Part shown: positions 6,157 to 32,386 of the stretch, piece after piece
Numbering within the stretch: the first letter of the stretch is position 1
Layout: each line of letters begins with the position of its first letter
Assembly: GCA_023262255.1 (NCBI GenBank)
Contig: JALRBT010000003.1
Coordinates: 1-52,716, forward strand
Source of the DNA: Ilumatobacteraceae bacterium
GTDB lineage: Bacteria; Actinomycetota; Acidimicrobiia; Acidimicrobiales; Ilumatobacteraceae
Direction: 5' to 3'
Length of the DNA stretch: 52,716 nucleotides
Notes under the pieces: generated by a model
Told to the model about the DNA's origin: nothing
What the model saw: only the letters and a program-made list of their open reading frames with translations
Databases searched by the model: none
Made by a program: the position numbers and the translations under genes

Positions 6157-7437
6157 CTACGGGTGGAGTCCACGCAATTGATGTGCATCGGCGAGTGCCT
6201 TCACGCCCAACACGGAGGCCGCCCTCCGGTAGGAGAGCGAGTGTTCCTCGGAGAACGCGTGCAAACGTTTGAACGCCGATCGCATCGTGGAAACCACGGA
6301 GGCATTCACCTCGTCTTCGTCCCACTGCAGGTGGGCGTAGTTCTGACACTGCTCGAGGTAGGAACACGTAACACCCCCAGCGTTGGCAAAGATGTCGGGC
6401 ACCACGATGACACCGCGATCATTGAGCACGTCGTCGGCTGCGGGCGTTAGCGGACCATTCGCACCCTCGATTACATACTTTGCCGTGAGTAGACCCGCTT
6501 CGCGGGCATCGATTGCATCCCCGAGTGCACAGGGCAGCGCGATATCGGAGGGCAGTGCGAACACGTCGGCAGAATGCTCGACCCCTCGTGCAATGACCTC
6601 ACCGACTCCGGCATCCACCACGCTCTCGATGCCCTGCTGCTTGGCGATGACGAGCGCGTCAACGTCAAGACCCTTCTCGCTTGCGATGACGCCACCGACA
6701 TCGGAGACTCCGACGATCCGCGCACCCCAGCCGACGGCGAGTCGCGCAGCCCACATACCGACGTTGCCGAACCCCTGGATGACGATTCGCTTCCCCTCGA
6801 TCGACGTACCTCGCGTCTGGCATGCCAGAGATGCCGCCTCCACCACGCCACGCCCGGTTGCCGAATCGCGACCGAGGGAACCCCCGAGTGCGAGCGGTTT
6901 GCCGGTCACCACTCCCGGAACCGCATGGCCGATGCCGATGGAGTACTGGTCCATGACCCATGCCATGACCTGGGCGTTGGTGCCGACATCGGGAGCGGGG
7001 ACATCCTTGTCCGGACCCAGAAAGGCGAAGATCTCGGACACGTATCGGCGGGTGACACGTTCCAATTCGCGGGGGCTCAGCAACTTTGGGTCGACTGCGA
7101 TACCACCCTTGGCGCCACCGAGTGGAAGATTCATCAATGCGGTCTTGAGCGACATCGCAGCCGCGAGCGACACGGTCTCCTCGCGATTCACCGATGGGTG
7201 GTAGCGAATACCGCCCTTGCCCGGACCACGCGTGATGTTGTGTTGAACCCGCCAACCGGTGAAACGAACGCGGGTGCCATCGTCGCGACGGATCGGAATC
7301 GACACTTCCAGTACTCGACGAGGGGCGATGAGATTTTCAATCACACCGTCCTCCAGTTGCAGCCACGCTCCCGCCTCGCGCATGCGGTACTCCACCGAGG
7401 TGAGTGACTGGTCCGCCGTGGGCTCTGGTGATGTCAT
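6157..7437 (-). CDS. Glu/Leu/Phe/Val dehydrogenase (glutamate dehydrogenase)
   Basis: 'GKGGIRYHPSVNREETVSLAAAMSLKTALMNLPLGGAKGGI' active-site region; Rossmann 'VIQGFGNVGMWAARL'. Start MTSPEP at 7437. Confidence 0.92.
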   Translation of the reverse strand: MTSPEPTADQSLTSVEYRMREAGAWLQLEDGVIENLIAPRRVLEVSIPIRRDDGTRVRFTGWRVQHNITRGPGKGGIRYHPSVNREETVSLAAAMSLKTALMNLPLGGAKGGIAVDPKLLSPRELERVTRRYVSEIFAFLGPDKDVPAPDVGTNAQVMAWVMDQYSIGIGHAVPGVVTGKPLALGGSLGRDSATGRGVVEAASLACQTRGTSIEGKRIVIQGFGNVGMWAARLAVGWGARIVGVSDVGGVIASEKGLDVDALVIAKQQGIESVVDAGVGEVIARGVEHSADVFALPSDIALPCALGDAIDAREAGLLTAKYVIEGANGPLTPAADDVLNDRGVIVVPDIFANAGGVTCSYLEQCQNYAHLQWDEDEVNASVVSTMRSAFKRLHAFSEEHSLSYRRAASVLGVKALADAHQLRGLHP

Positions 7438-7487
7438 TGCGATGAGCGGCTCCGTTGCCGCTTCACGAAATGTTAGACGATGCAAAG

Positions 7488-7525
7488 AAAACATTCCGGA
7501 AACACTTCCCACACAGGGGTGAAAC
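7488..7525 (+). promoter_or_regulatory. Candidate GlnR-type binding site (AAAAC-n6-GAAAC-n6-CACAC-n6-GAAAC)
   Basis: Four AC dinucleotides exactly 11 bp apart (7491, 7502, 7513, 7524) in the divergent region between glutamate dehydrogenase and amt-glnB. Matches the published GlnR architecture gTnAC-n6-GaAAC x2. Confidence 0.5.
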
Positions 7526-7619
7526 CTTGATGATTTAACGTGGTCGTCGCCGGGCCAACGACGTCTCCGCAGTCCATAGCCACCTCGCTCAAATGCAGCG
7601 ATATCCAAAGGAGGTCACG

Positions 7620-9400
<1,781 letters not shown>

Positions 9401-27530: not shown

Positions 27531-28142
27531 GTGGGATTTTTCGACCGTAATCGCGCGGAAGTCGAAGCGAAGGGGTTCGACCCCAAGCGTTTGCCACCGG
27601 GGCAGTACCTCACCGAGCGTTTTCCGGTGCTGCACGTGGGGGACGTACCGACCTACGCGCCGGGCGAGTGGTCGCTGCACATCGGTGGTGCCGTTGCGTC
27701 GCCCTACACATTGACCTACGAACAGTTGCTGGACTTGCCGTCGACGACGCTCACCGTCGACATCCACTGCGTAACCAAGTGGTCGAAATTCGACACCGTG
27801 TGGAGGGGTGTGCGCGTGCGCGACCTGTTCGAGCGCGCCGGCATCAGTTTCGAGGCGTCGCACGTGATGGCTCACGCCGAGTACGGCTACACGGCCAACT
27901 TGCCGCTCGCCGATGCAACTCGCGACGACTCACTCGTGGCGTACCGGTACGACGGAGCCGACATCGAGCCGATTCACGGCGGGCCGGTGCGCTTGTTCAT
28001 CCCGCATCTGTATTTTTGGAAATCAGCGAAGTGGCTACGCGGGCTCGAGGCCACCACGCAGGACGCCCCCGGCTTCTGGGAGCAGAACGGCTACCACATG
28101 TACGGAGACCCGTTCCTCGAACAACGATTCTGGGGTGACTGA
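27531..28142 (+). CDS. Sulfite oxidase-like molybdopterin oxidoreductase (MsrP/YedY-like fold)
   Basis: 'LTVDIHCVTKWSKFDTVWRGVRVRDL' Mo-ligand Cys region. GTG start. Confidence 0.9.
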   Translation: MGFFDRNRAEVEAKGFDPKRLPPGQYLTERFPVLHVGDVPTYAPGEWSLHIGGAVASPYTLTYEQLLDLPSTTLTVDIHCVTKWSKFDTVWRGVRVRDLFERAGISFEASHVMAHAEYGYTANLPLADATRDDSLVAYRYDGADIEPIHGGPVRLFIPHLYFWKSAKWLRGLEATTQDAPGFWEQNGYHMYGDPFLEQRFWGD

Positions 28143-28145
28143 GCG

Positions 28146-28895
28146 CTACCCAATGCGGTCGTGCAGGGTCGTTTCACAGAAGCGATCACCCTGAGGCAAC
28201 GAAGCGGACGTCTCGGGCGACGTTTCGCCGTACAACGTGTCGAGCATTCCCTTCACCATGCCTCGGTCGACGGCGCAAATCACCGGGTGCTCGATGGCGA
28301 CGTCTCCGAACGGACAGTGGTTGTTGATGATTCGCAATTTGTTCTGTCGCTTCTCCGCGTGCGCAGCAAATCCGTGCGCAGTCAGTGCGTCGGCAACACG
28401 CTGGAGTGCCGAGCGCAACGAGCGTTGACCGGCAGCGACATCGTCCCCCGTCAAGCCGGCGGCCATCGCGTGCCCGTACTTGCGACCTACCTCCTCGGCC
28501 ATGGCCTCGGCGGCGTCGCGAGGTAGTCGCTCGAGAGCCTCACCAAGGAGCGACAACACCAAGTCGTCGCTGCGAACGGGAAACTGCATCGGTTCGGTGG
28601 TCGTCACCGGGCTATACCGCTTGGATGGGCGTCCGGCTCCGGCGTGCTCCGCGCGCACAACTTCCACCTCGAGGTAACCCCCCGCTGCGAGCTTGTCGAG
28701 ATGATGTCGTGCCACGTTGGGGTGAACATCGAACCGTTCGGCAACCTGACTGGCGGTGACACCCTGGGCGGCATCGCGAACGAACAAGTACACCGCACGA
28801 CGCGTGGGATCACCAAATGCGGAGGTAATGGCGGATACCTGCGAGGCGAATGCGCCACCGGTCACGCTACTCGCCGCGGACTTGATGCGCGTCAC
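28146..28895 (-). CDS. SufR-like HTH regulator with C-terminal Cys cluster
   Basis: HTH 'VTASQVAERFDVHPNVARHHLDKLAAGGYL'; C-X12-C 'HCPFGDVAIEHPVICAVD' and a later Cys. Confidence 0.83.
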   Translation of the reverse strand: MTRIKSAASSVTGGAFASQVSAITSAFGDPTRRAVYLFVRDAAQGVTASQVAERFDVHPNVARHHLDKLAAGGYLEVEVVRAEHAGAGRPSKRYSPVTTTEPMQFPVRSDDLVLSLLGEALERLPRDAAEAMAEEVGRKYGHAMAAGLTGDDVAAGQRSLRSALQRVADALTAHGFAAHAEKRQNKLRIINNHCPFGDVAIEHPVICAVDRGMVKGMLDTLYGETSPETSASLPQGDRFCETTLHDRIG

Positions 28896-28917
28896 GCGAT
28901 TAGCCTAACGAGCGCGC

Positions 28918-30060
28918 ATGAGCACCCTCACTCCTGAATCCGTCATCGACGCACTGCGTCCGGTCGAAGATCCGGAGTTGCACCGCTCGATCGTGGATCT
29001 CAACATGGTTCGTGACGTGGTCATCAACGACGGCGTGGTGTCGCTCACCGTCACGTTGACCATCGCGGGTTGTCCGTTACGCAACGAGATACAAAGCCGC
29101 GTCAACGGTGCCATTCGACCGATGTCGGGCGTACGTGACGTGCAGTTGAACTTTGGGGTGATGACCGACGAGGAACGCGCCGCACTGCGGGAAAAGTTGC
29201 ACGGCTCGCCCGGTGCCACCGCGGGTAGTGCTCCCGCACAGGGTCACGCGCAGGGTCGCACCATCTCGTTCGCGCAACCCGGTTCCAAGACGCGACCGTT
29301 GCTCATCTCTTCCGGCAAGGGAGGTGTGGGTAAGAGCAGCGTCACCACCAACCTGGCCGTGGCACTCGCCGCGGCGGGTCACACGGTGGGAGTCGTCGAC
29401 GCGGACATCTACGGCTATTCCATTCCGCGCATGCTCGGTGCCGATCGCGACCCGGTGGTCATCGACGAGATGCTGTTGCCGCCGGAGAGTTACGGCGTTC
29501 GCTGCATCTCGATCGGCTACTTCGTTCCCGAGGGTCAAGCGGTGGTGTGGCGTGGTCCGATGTTGCACAAGGCACTGGAGCAGTTCCTCACCGACGTGTA
29601 CTGGGACGAGCCGGAGTTCCTGCTCATCGACATGCCCCCGGGTACCGGCGACATCGCGTTGAGCCTGAGTCAGTACCTGCCACGTGCGGAGGTGTACGTG
29701 GTGACCACTCCACAGGAGGCGGCGCAGAAGGTCGCGCGACTATCCGCGGCGATGGCCAAGAAGGTCAACATGTCGGTACGCGGCGTCATCGAGAACATGT
29801 CGTGGTTCACCGGCGACGACGGCAAGCGGTACGAACTCTTCGGTCAGGGAGGCGGAAAGATGTTGGCCGACGAACTCGGCGTGCCGCTGCTGGCACAGAT
29901 TCCGTTGGTGAACCAGCTCCGCGAGGGCGGCGACGACGGCAAGCCGATTGCAGCCATCGCACCAGGAAGTGAAGTGGGCTCGATATTCGCGGATCTGGCC
30001 AAGAAAATCGTCGAGATGCGACCGAAAAAGGTCTTCAGTCAGGCCCTGAAGGTCAACTGA
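28918..30060 (+). CDS. apbC: Mrp/NBP35/ApbC-type Fe-S carrier P-loop ATPase
   Basis: N-terminal MIP18/DUF59 domain; 'LLISSGKGGVGKSSVTTNLAVALA', 'LLIDMPPGTGDIALSLSQ'. Confidence 0.94.
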   Translation: MSTLTPESVIDALRPVEDPELHRSIVDLNMVRDVVINDGVVSLTVTLTIAGCPLRNEIQSRVNGAIRPMSGVRDVQLNFGVMTDEERAALREKLHGSPGATAGSAPAQGHAQGRTISFAQPGSKTRPLLISSGKGGVGKSSVTTNLAVALAAAGHTVGVVDADIYGYSIPRMLGADRDPVVIDEMLLPPESYGVRCISIGYFVPEGQAVVWRGPMLHKALEQFLTDVYWDEPEFLLIDMPPGTGDIALSLSQYLPRAEVYVVTTPQEAAQKVARLSAAMAKKVNMSVRGVIENMSWFTGDDGKRYELFGQGGGKMLADELGVPLLAQIPLVNQLREGGDDGKPIAAIAPGSEVGSIFADLAKKIVEMRPKKVFSQALKVN

Positions 30061-30078
30061 CCTGACACACTGGTGACC

Positions 30079-30315
30079 ATGGACCTGCGCATCGGAGTCA
30101 CCCACTCGTCACGAGACATCAGTTTGGAGATCGAGAACGACGAACCGTCGCGGGTCGCCGCACGAAAGAGCGTGGAGGAGGCACTCGCCGGGAAGGTGGA
30201 GGTGCTCTGGCTGAAGGACAAGCGCGGACGGGAGGTCGCCGTGCCGTCGGAGAAGATTGCCTTCGTCGAGTTCGGTGCCCCAGACGGGGAGCGTCGACTG
30301 GGGTTCGGAGCCTGA
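30079..30315 (+). CDS. DUF3107 family protein
   Basis: 78 aa 'MDLRIGVTHSSRDISLEIENDEPSRVAARKSVEEALAG...VPSEKIAFVEFGAPDGERRLGFGA'. Confidence 0.85.
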   Translation: MDLRIGVTHSSRDISLEIENDEPSRVAARKSVEEALAGKVEVLWLKDKRGREVAVPSEKIAFVEFGAPDGERRLGFGA

Positions 30316-31232
30316 CGCTTCGAGCGTTACTTACTCGACGACTCGTCTTCGTAACGGGAAAGGGTGGCGTCGGCAAATCCGCCGTGGCCGCGGCATTGGC
30401 GAGGCTTGCGGCCGGCGAAGGCAAGCGGGTGCTGGCTTGCGAAATGGACGACAAGGGCTCGCTCGCTGCGTACCTCGGGCGCAACGACCTGACGTTCTCA
30501 CCCGTGGAAGTGTCACCGAACCTGTATGCGATGGCAATGAACACGGAGGATTCTCTGCGCGAGTACATCCGACTGTTCTTGCGGGTTCCCGTGATCGGCA
30601 GCCTCACACCACTCGCCCGCATCTTCGATTTCGTGGCGAACGCGGCACCGGCCGTGAAGGAAATCCTGACGGTTGGCAAGCTGTGCTACGAGGTTCGTGA
30701 ACGGCACTACGACATCGTCATCGTGGACTCCGAAGCGAGCGGTCACTTCGTCGCCCAGGTGTCGGCACCGGATGCACTCGCCACCTTGGTTCGAATCGGC
30801 ATCGTCGCCGACCAGACCAAATGGATGAGCAACTTGCTGCACGACCCAGAGGTTTCCACGGTGCTCGCGGTGGTGACACCGGAGGAAATGCCCGTCGTCG
30901 AGACGATCGAATTACGGGATCGATTGGCGACGGCAACGCCAATCGATTTCGCCGGTGTGCTGGTGAATCGCATGCCCGCGGCACTCGTCGATGCCGAACT
31001 TCTGGCGACCGTGGCACCGACGAGCGGACATCTGGCCACCTCCGTGCAGGTCGGTGAGTGGCTGACCGAACGTCGGTCGAATGCCGAACTCCACGCGCGG
31101 CGACTCGCCGATGCCCTCGAACTGGGCAACGTGGAGACCATCGCCGAAGCCCCGGCCGGGACACCCTCGCCGGAACGGATCACCGACCATTTGGTGGGTG
31201 AGATGCGCCGAATCCTGGACGAGCACGCATGA
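30312..31232 (+). CDS. ArsA/Get3-like ATPase, first of a pair
   Basis: The open frame upstream of the ORF-track start encodes RLVFVTGKGGVGKSAVAAALARL, so the P-loop needs a start near CTG 30312 (CTGA overlap with DUF3107 stop). Confidence 0.82.
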   Translation: MTLRALLTRRLVFVTGKGGVGKSAVAAALARLAAGEGKRVLACEMDDKGSLAAYLGRNDLTFSPVEVSPNLYAMAMNTEDSLREYIRLFLRVPVIGSLTPLARIFDFVANAAPAVKEILTVGKLCYEVRERHYDIVIVDSEASGHFVAQVSAPDALATLVRIGIVADQTKWMSNLLHDPEVSTVLAVVTPEEMPVVETIELRDRLATATPIDFAGVLVNRMPAALVDAELLATVAPTSGHLATSVQVGEWLTERRSNAELHARRLADALELGNVETIAEAPAGTPSPERITDHLVGEMRRILDEHA

Positions 31233-32386
31233 TCGTCGCACCCGGCGGTACGAACGAAACCATCGAGCAGTTCGCTCCACTCGATCCGGAACTCTTCGAC
31301 ATGCTTGCGAAATCGAGAATGATCATCATCTGCGGGCCGGGTGGTGTCGGGAAGACCACGTCTGCCGCCGCGTTGGGGGTGGTGGCCGCCCGCCATTTTT
31401 CCAAGCGGGTGTTGGTGCTGACGGTGGATCCGGCGCGTCGGCTGGCGACTGCCCTCGGTCTCGGGACCATCGGTAACGCCGAAGTGCCGGTGGAACTCGC
31501 GGGCGCCAAGGGAAGTCTCGACATCGCGATGATCGACACCAAAGCCAGTTGGGACGACATGGTGCGTCGACACGCGCCGGACGGTGTGACCCGTGATCGA
31601 GTGTTGAGCAACGATCTGTACAAGACGTTGACGTCGCGGTTCGTGCACAGTCACGACTACGTGGTTACCGAGCGCCTGTACGACGCGCGCGAAAGCGGCG
31701 TCTACGACCTCGTCGTGGTGGACACGCCGCCGTCGCGAAGTGCGCTCTCGGTGCTGGATGCACCGCGACGCATGGAACAATTCTTCTCCAGCCGACTTCT
31801 CAAATTGTTGACCGCACCCACCCAGTCGCGACTGTTGTCGCTGGCGTCGCGACCATTCTTCATCGTTGCCGACCGAATCCTCGGCGCGGCATTCCTGTCG
31901 GACATCGCAGAGTTCTTCACGTTGTTTCGCACGATGGAGGGACCATTCGTGTCGCGGGCACGCCGGGTCGGGGCACTGTTGTCGGACCCTGCCACGTCGT
32001 ACGTCGTCGTCACCAGCCCCGAGCCGGTGGCCATGCAGGAAGCCGGCTATCTCGTGGAGGAGTTGCGTCAAAGGGGTCATCGTCTCGACGCGGTGGTCAC
32101 CAACCGACTCGTGCCGAGCCACCTCGCCACCGGGGCGGCCGAACGCGCCGAAGCGCTCATGGAGGGCAACCCGTCGCGCGATGCCAGCGATACGCCGCTC
32201 ACGACCGCCACGCGTCGAGCGTTGGCAGCCGCCGAACGCGAGATCGCAAACATCGCCAACCAGCACGCGGCCGCCCTGGCGGAGATTCGGCGGTGGGGTG
32301 CCCGGGTGTTCATGAGTGAGTCGCGCGGGGGTGACATCACTGACGTGACGTCGTTGCTCGCCCTCGGCGAGGCGCTGCGCACCTAA
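31229..32386 (+). CDS. ArsA/Get3-like ATPase, second of a pair
   Basis: 'IIICGPGGVGKTTSAAALGVVAAR', 'LTVDPARRLATALGL', 'VVVDTPPSRSALSVLDAPRRM'. ATGA overlap. Confidence 0.92.
   Translation: MIVAPGGTNETIEQFAPLDPELFDMLAKSRMIIICGPGGVGKTTSAAALGVVAARHFSKRVLVLTVDPARRLATALGLGTIGNAEVPVELAGAKGSLDIAMIDTKASWDDMVRRHAPDGVTRDRVLSNDLYKTLTSRFVHSHDYVVTERLYDARESGVYDLVVVDTPPSRSALSVLDAPRRMEQFFSSRLLKLLTAPTQSRLLSLASRPFFIVADRILGAAFLSDIAEFFTLFRTMEGPFVSRARRVGALLSDPATSYVVVTSPEPVAMQEAGYLVEELRQRGHRLDAVVTNRLVPSHLATGAAERAEALMEGNPSRDASDTPLTTATRRALAAAEREIANIANQHAAALAEIRRWGARVFMSESRGGDITDVTSLLALGEALRT

Follow-up and report, generated by a model that had tools for sequence, protein, structure and literature searches.

A predicted GlnR operator between the glutamate dehydrogenase and amt-glnB genes of an Ilumatobacteraceae bacterium

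The published consensus of the GlnR operator in Streptomyces and Mycobacterium consists of gTnAC-n6-GaAAC, present twice (PMC10704036), and in its activation complex four DNA-binding domains of this regulator occupy four sites in head-to-tail order (PMC10704036). In S. coelicolor GlnR activates amtB and represses gdhA (PMC10704036). According to our analysis, a stretch of 52,716 nucleotides from an Ilumatobacteraceae bacterium (GenBank assembly GCA_023262255.1, contig JALRBT010000003.1; the whole stretch is called the window below) possesses at 7488-7525 a site which we predict, with high confidence, to be a GlnR operator activating amt-glnB and probably repressing gdh. Like the operators of Streptomyces and Mycobacterium, it has four half-sites built of 5 + 6 bp units in 11-bp phase, with GAAAC at the b-sites, and is situated before the amt and PII genes; the regulator that we assign to it is, as in these bacteria, an OmpR-type orphan. 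Unlike those operators, it retains in this genus only the AC of the a-sites, occupies a single region between gdh and amt, and is separated from the -10 element by a distance that is fixed at 10 nt family-wide. PHO boxes, the operators of PhoP and PhoB, likewise consist of direct repeats of 11 bp, which are bound head to tail and take the place of the -35 element; the half-site sequence of the present site differs from theirs, and the genes beside it belong to nitrogen and not to phosphate metabolism.

The site lies in the spacer between gdh (minus strand, ATG at 7437) and amt (TTG at 7620), and its letters in the window are AAAAC-attccg-GAAAC-acttcc-CACAC-aggggt-GAAAC. The half-sites AAAAC (7488-7492), GAAAC (7499-7503), CACAC (7510-7514) and GAAAC (7521-7525) follow each other in the a-b-a-b order and 11-bp phase of a GlnR operator, and the AC steps at 7491-92, 7502-03, 7513-14 and 7524-25 confirm the claim of the earlier note that four ACs are phased at exactly 11 bp. 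Both b-sites fit the GlnR b-site GaAAC, and the a-sites AAAAC and CACAC agree with gTnAC at the AC only; this mismatch, which had also been pointed out, is real. In many relatives the amt box starts with the full GTCAC, and for this reason the site in the window appears to be a degenerate version of a well-formed box.

The phasing of ACs taken by itself is at the level of chance (AC-n9-AC-n9-AC-n9-AC was seen 3 times in the window with 2.5 expected, which is not significant), so the case for an operator is made by the two GAAAC half-sites together with position and conservation. GAAAC-n17-GAAAC was seen twice in the window with 0.14 expected. When about 105,000 positions of the window are ranked with a matrix for which only amt boxes from other genera were used, 7488 comes first if all 38 columns are counted and second if the half-sites alone are scored. 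When the 1.65 Mb genome was scanned for the box with its -10 element, allowing up to 3 mismatches, the 7488 site was the sole exact match and one further match had 3 mismatches, the reversed control pattern giving two at 3 mismatches or fewer. The letters, the matrix rank and the conservation described below are the grounds on which we annotate 7488..7525, plus strand, as a GlnR-type operator.

Six species of the genus have retained both the phased site and the divergent arrangement of gdh and amt, and in the alignment of their intergenic regions the half-sites and both -10 elements form invariant blocks, with spacers that vary. The amt gene next to gdh is a different paralogue in three of these six species (L174, L175, L177), the operator being retained. 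In other genera the commonest box upstream of amt (or of glnB-amt) is GTCAC-n6-GAAAC-n6-GCGAC-n6-GAAAC, which is close to the published GlnR consensus, and TANNNT begins exactly 10 nt after the box in 46 of the 47 amt loci of the family, the boxes having been chosen without use of the -10 and the counts coming from related genomes, whose events are not independent. A class-wide search of 247 genomes for the box and -10 with zero mismatches returned 15 exact matches, 14 of them before amt or glnB-amt, and none for the reversed control pattern. The lone match elsewhere (L229, G151:C140:21723-21773) precedes a gene whose translation resembles a peptide-binding protein. It is by comparison of genomes that the site, its conservation and its fixed geometry are established, as is the presence of the regulator gene discussed below, and the location in a promoter of nitrogen genes is conserved among relatives too.

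Downstream of the site, amt (7620..9005, plus strand) encodes an ammonium transporter (TIGR00836, 421 bits with a cut-off of 343), and its TTG start is preceded by a ribosome-binding site, AAAGGAGG, at 7607-7614. It is followed by glnB (9062..9400, plus strand), a gene of the PII nitrogen regulatory protein recognised by P-II models with scores under their equivalog cut-offs, and on the other side gdh (6157..7437, minus strand) matches the glutamate dehydrogenase model NF041398 with 441 bits, also under the equivalog cut-off. The -10 hexamer of the amt-glnB promoter, TAACGT (7536..7541, plus strand), starts exactly 10 nt past the end of the operator, and that of the divergent gdh promoter, TAACAT (7470..7475, minus strand), belongs to a CTAACAT that is invariant in the six species of the genus. 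Neither the amt nor the gdh promoter has a consensus -35, and no sigma-70-type hexamer pair was found. With 10 bp between the end of the box and the -10, the last two half-sites of the operator occupy the amt -35 region; read in the other direction, the operator also takes in the -35 position of gdh.

We infer that nitrogen limitation would lead GlnR, an orphan of the OmpR type whose gene lies elsewhere in the genome, to bind the four half-sites, its subunits sitting head to tail on one face of the DNA. The downstream GlnR pair would stand in for the missing -35, 10 bp before TAACGT, and recruit RNA polymerase, by which amt-glnB would be activated; the missing -35, the box 10 bp from the -10 and the four-domain complex together fit an activator that replaces the -35 element. 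The bound array would cover the -35 position of gdh, and this gene would probably be repressed. Repression seems the likelier effect on gdh because GlnR represses gdhA in S. coelicolor (PMC10704036), and we consider it plausible only.

The earlier suggestion that one site could control both genes holds strongly for amt and PII; for gdh it is plausible only, since the -35 position is covered but the gene has no box elsewhere and its spacing is not rigid. It is quite possible, if not the reading to which we incline, that the site controls amt only and that gdh is a bystander which happens to lie beside amt in this genus. The distance from the box to the amt -10 is rigid at 10 nt in the family and on the gdh side one of the six species has 3 nt less between box and -10; where gdh lies away from amt, in other genera of the family, there is no box upstream of it. 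Against control of amt alone speaks that in each of the six species the box lies over the gdh -35 position, and that gdh and amt stay divergent even with a different amt paralogue.

The regulator itself could be assigned with the following evidence. An OmpR-type DNA-binding domain is found in five proteins of the genome, of which four have ordinary receiver residues and the fifth, encoded on contig C179, does not. This fifth protein is the best own-genome match when M. tuberculosis GlnR is taken as a query, its orthologue is present in single copy in 97 of 101 Ilumatobacteraceae genomes, and its best PDB matches are 8hih, 8hig and 8hml, well ahead of MtrA. In the fold search these entries are titled as a transcription complex with M. 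tuberculosis GlnR and as Saccharopolyspora erythraea GlnR DNA-binding domains, with 8HIH ranked first by Foldseek for our structure model, in which the domain arrangement is uncertain (pTM 0.62, TM-score about 0.4). Four phased half-sites suit four DNA-binding domains placed head to tail, and the M. tuberculosis complex 8HIH and the S. erythraea structures 8HIG and 8HML are the closest solved structures by sequence and the first by fold; compared with them the receiver domain is strongly diverged here. The winged-helix DNA-binding domain carries the GlnR recognition helix, its segment GG[A/T]RTVDVHVRRLRAKLG being the same as in M. tuberculosis GlnR except for one residue.

In the receiver domain the acidic pair, the phospho-Asp motif and the KP motif, present in the other four OmpR proteins, are absent, and the protein shares with GlnR the lack of a canonical phosphorylation pocket. 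It departs from GlnR at Asp-50, which is used there in homodimerization (PMC10704036) and is Ser in our species. At this position (alignment column 53) the family has Asp in genus g4 and Ser, Cys, Gly, Ala, Met, Val or Thr elsewhere. The Pfam model GlnR_1st gives the receiver domain 16 bits in our species, below its cut-off of 27, and matches 11 of 20 relatives at E <=0.01; it is a poor judge here, because a higher score (25 bits, also below the cut-off) goes to one of the genome's ordinary response regulators. No histidine kinase was found among the long frames of the 3.2-kb glnR locus, and the upstream neighbour of the gene is of the glnA type. We call the C179 protein a GlnR orthologue on its DNA-binding domain, its single copy and its gene context, a call that is not certified by Pfam. 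The earlier note had taken the spacing for the published GlnR operator architecture and had named beforehand two findings that would count against it, the absence of a GlnR orthologue and the loss of the 11-bp phasing in close relatives; an orthologue is present in a glnII-glnA-glnR cluster and the phasing is conserved, and both support the reading of the spacing.

In this cluster (contig C179, about 28074-31275) glnR is the third gene, and the order glnII, glnA-type, glnR holds for each of the 20 family genomes retrieved for it; in our genome the glnA-type frame is immediately followed by glnR. In the genomes retrieved, a related phased box lies before the start of glnII, most commonly TTCAC-n6-TTCAC-n6-GCAAC-n6-GAAAC, which after 10 nt is followed by a hexamer NANNNT, and our genome has TTCAC-n6-TTAAC-n6-ATGAT-n6-GACAC-n10-GAAACT, with no phased glnII box seen in the scan of two genomes of the same genus (L202, L203). 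Judging from this box, GlnR may control its own gene cluster. A matrix of the glnII boxes does not single out 7488 (rank 86, or 25 with the -10 added), so the amt and glnII promoters share phasing and geometry and not the letters of the half-sites. The region upstream of a separate glnA-type gene on contig C147 scored low (2.6) with the amt-box matrix. This low score weighs against the GlnR reading, as do the partial match of the a-sites and, in the regulator, the Pfam score and the Ser at Asp-50.

We regard it as improbable that another regulator of the OmpR/PhoB type (PhoP, RegX3 or MtrA type) binds the site, alone or in competition with GlnR. Sites of the PhoP, RegX3 and MtrA type are also 11-bp direct repeats, there are four other OmpR-type regulators in the genome, and the glnII boxes read TTCAC-n6-TTCAC, which the repeats of the PHO box resemble. 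In addition, the sites of PhoP and GlnR overlap at amtB, glnA and glnII in S. coelicolor (PMC10704036). However, the amt box has the published GlnR half-site GAAAC at both b positions, the class-wide exact matches precede amt or glnB-amt with one exception in 15, and GlnR is encoded in the glnII cluster, before which a box of this type also lies; all this argues for GlnR. Coincidence in a spacer richer in AT, which could be argued from the frequency of phased ACs expected in the window, is rejected, as good as certainly, by the family-wide conservation with a fixed -10 and by the class-wide search.

The transcripts of both genes have a feature of their own. In gdh leaders and in many amt leaders (L013-L040, L151-L170, L172-L187) a hairpin closed by C-G, with a loop ARCGNN, comes right after the inferred transcription start. 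In the window the gdh transcript carries AGCGGC-AACGGA-GCCGCT (7445..7462, minus strand) at its inferred 5' end, with a stem that covaries and a loop that is conserved in gdh leaders, and the amt transcript has a weak hairpin with the same loop type, GGGCC-AACGAC-GTCTC (7552..7567, plus strand), at its own inferred 5' end; of the two, that of gdh folds well, and that of amt does not and is not the minimum-energy fold of its leader. Strict matches to the ARCGNN hairpin occur in 18 of the 47 amt leaders with 0.7 expected, and the pairs of the stem covary more than in shuffled and slid controls, in counts that are biased by a partial selection of the sequences on the loop and closing pair. The gdh leaders of a second genus retain the hairpin and have no GlnR box, and an Rfam search of the leaders gave no family that matches it. 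A CCCCTAC-like stretch also recurs about 20-40 nt after the inferred start in glnII leaders (L205-L218) and several amt leaders.

An ANTAR target RNA has two hexaloop hairpins with A1 and G4 in each loop (PMC8164766). The ARCGNN loop has A1 and G4 as well, the genome encodes one ANTAR response regulator, and the leader hairpin resembles half of such a target; we do not accept it as an ANTAR target RNA, as there is one hairpin only and no second hexaloop hairpin in the leaders inspected. A second layer of control on the gdh and amt transcripts, in which the 5' hairpin would be bound by an RNA-binding regulator, possibly the single ANTAR response regulator, can be proposed very tentatively and is rather doubtful.

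The four phased ACs described here almost certainly form a GlnR binding site for switching on ammonium uptake, a known kind of switch, met in little-studied freshwater actinobacteria. Our literature search found no paper joining GlnR and Acidimicrobiia, and the predicted operator would extend the GlnR nitrogen regulon of Streptomyces, mycobacteria and their relatives to uncultured freshwater members of this class. The promoter rule of a box, 10 nt and TANNNT would let GlnR-activated promoters be found from sequence in this group. The regulator gene in these bacteria lies directly behind two probable targets, in the order glnII-glnA-glnR, and the control region between gdh and amt is retained while the adjoining amt gene differs among species.
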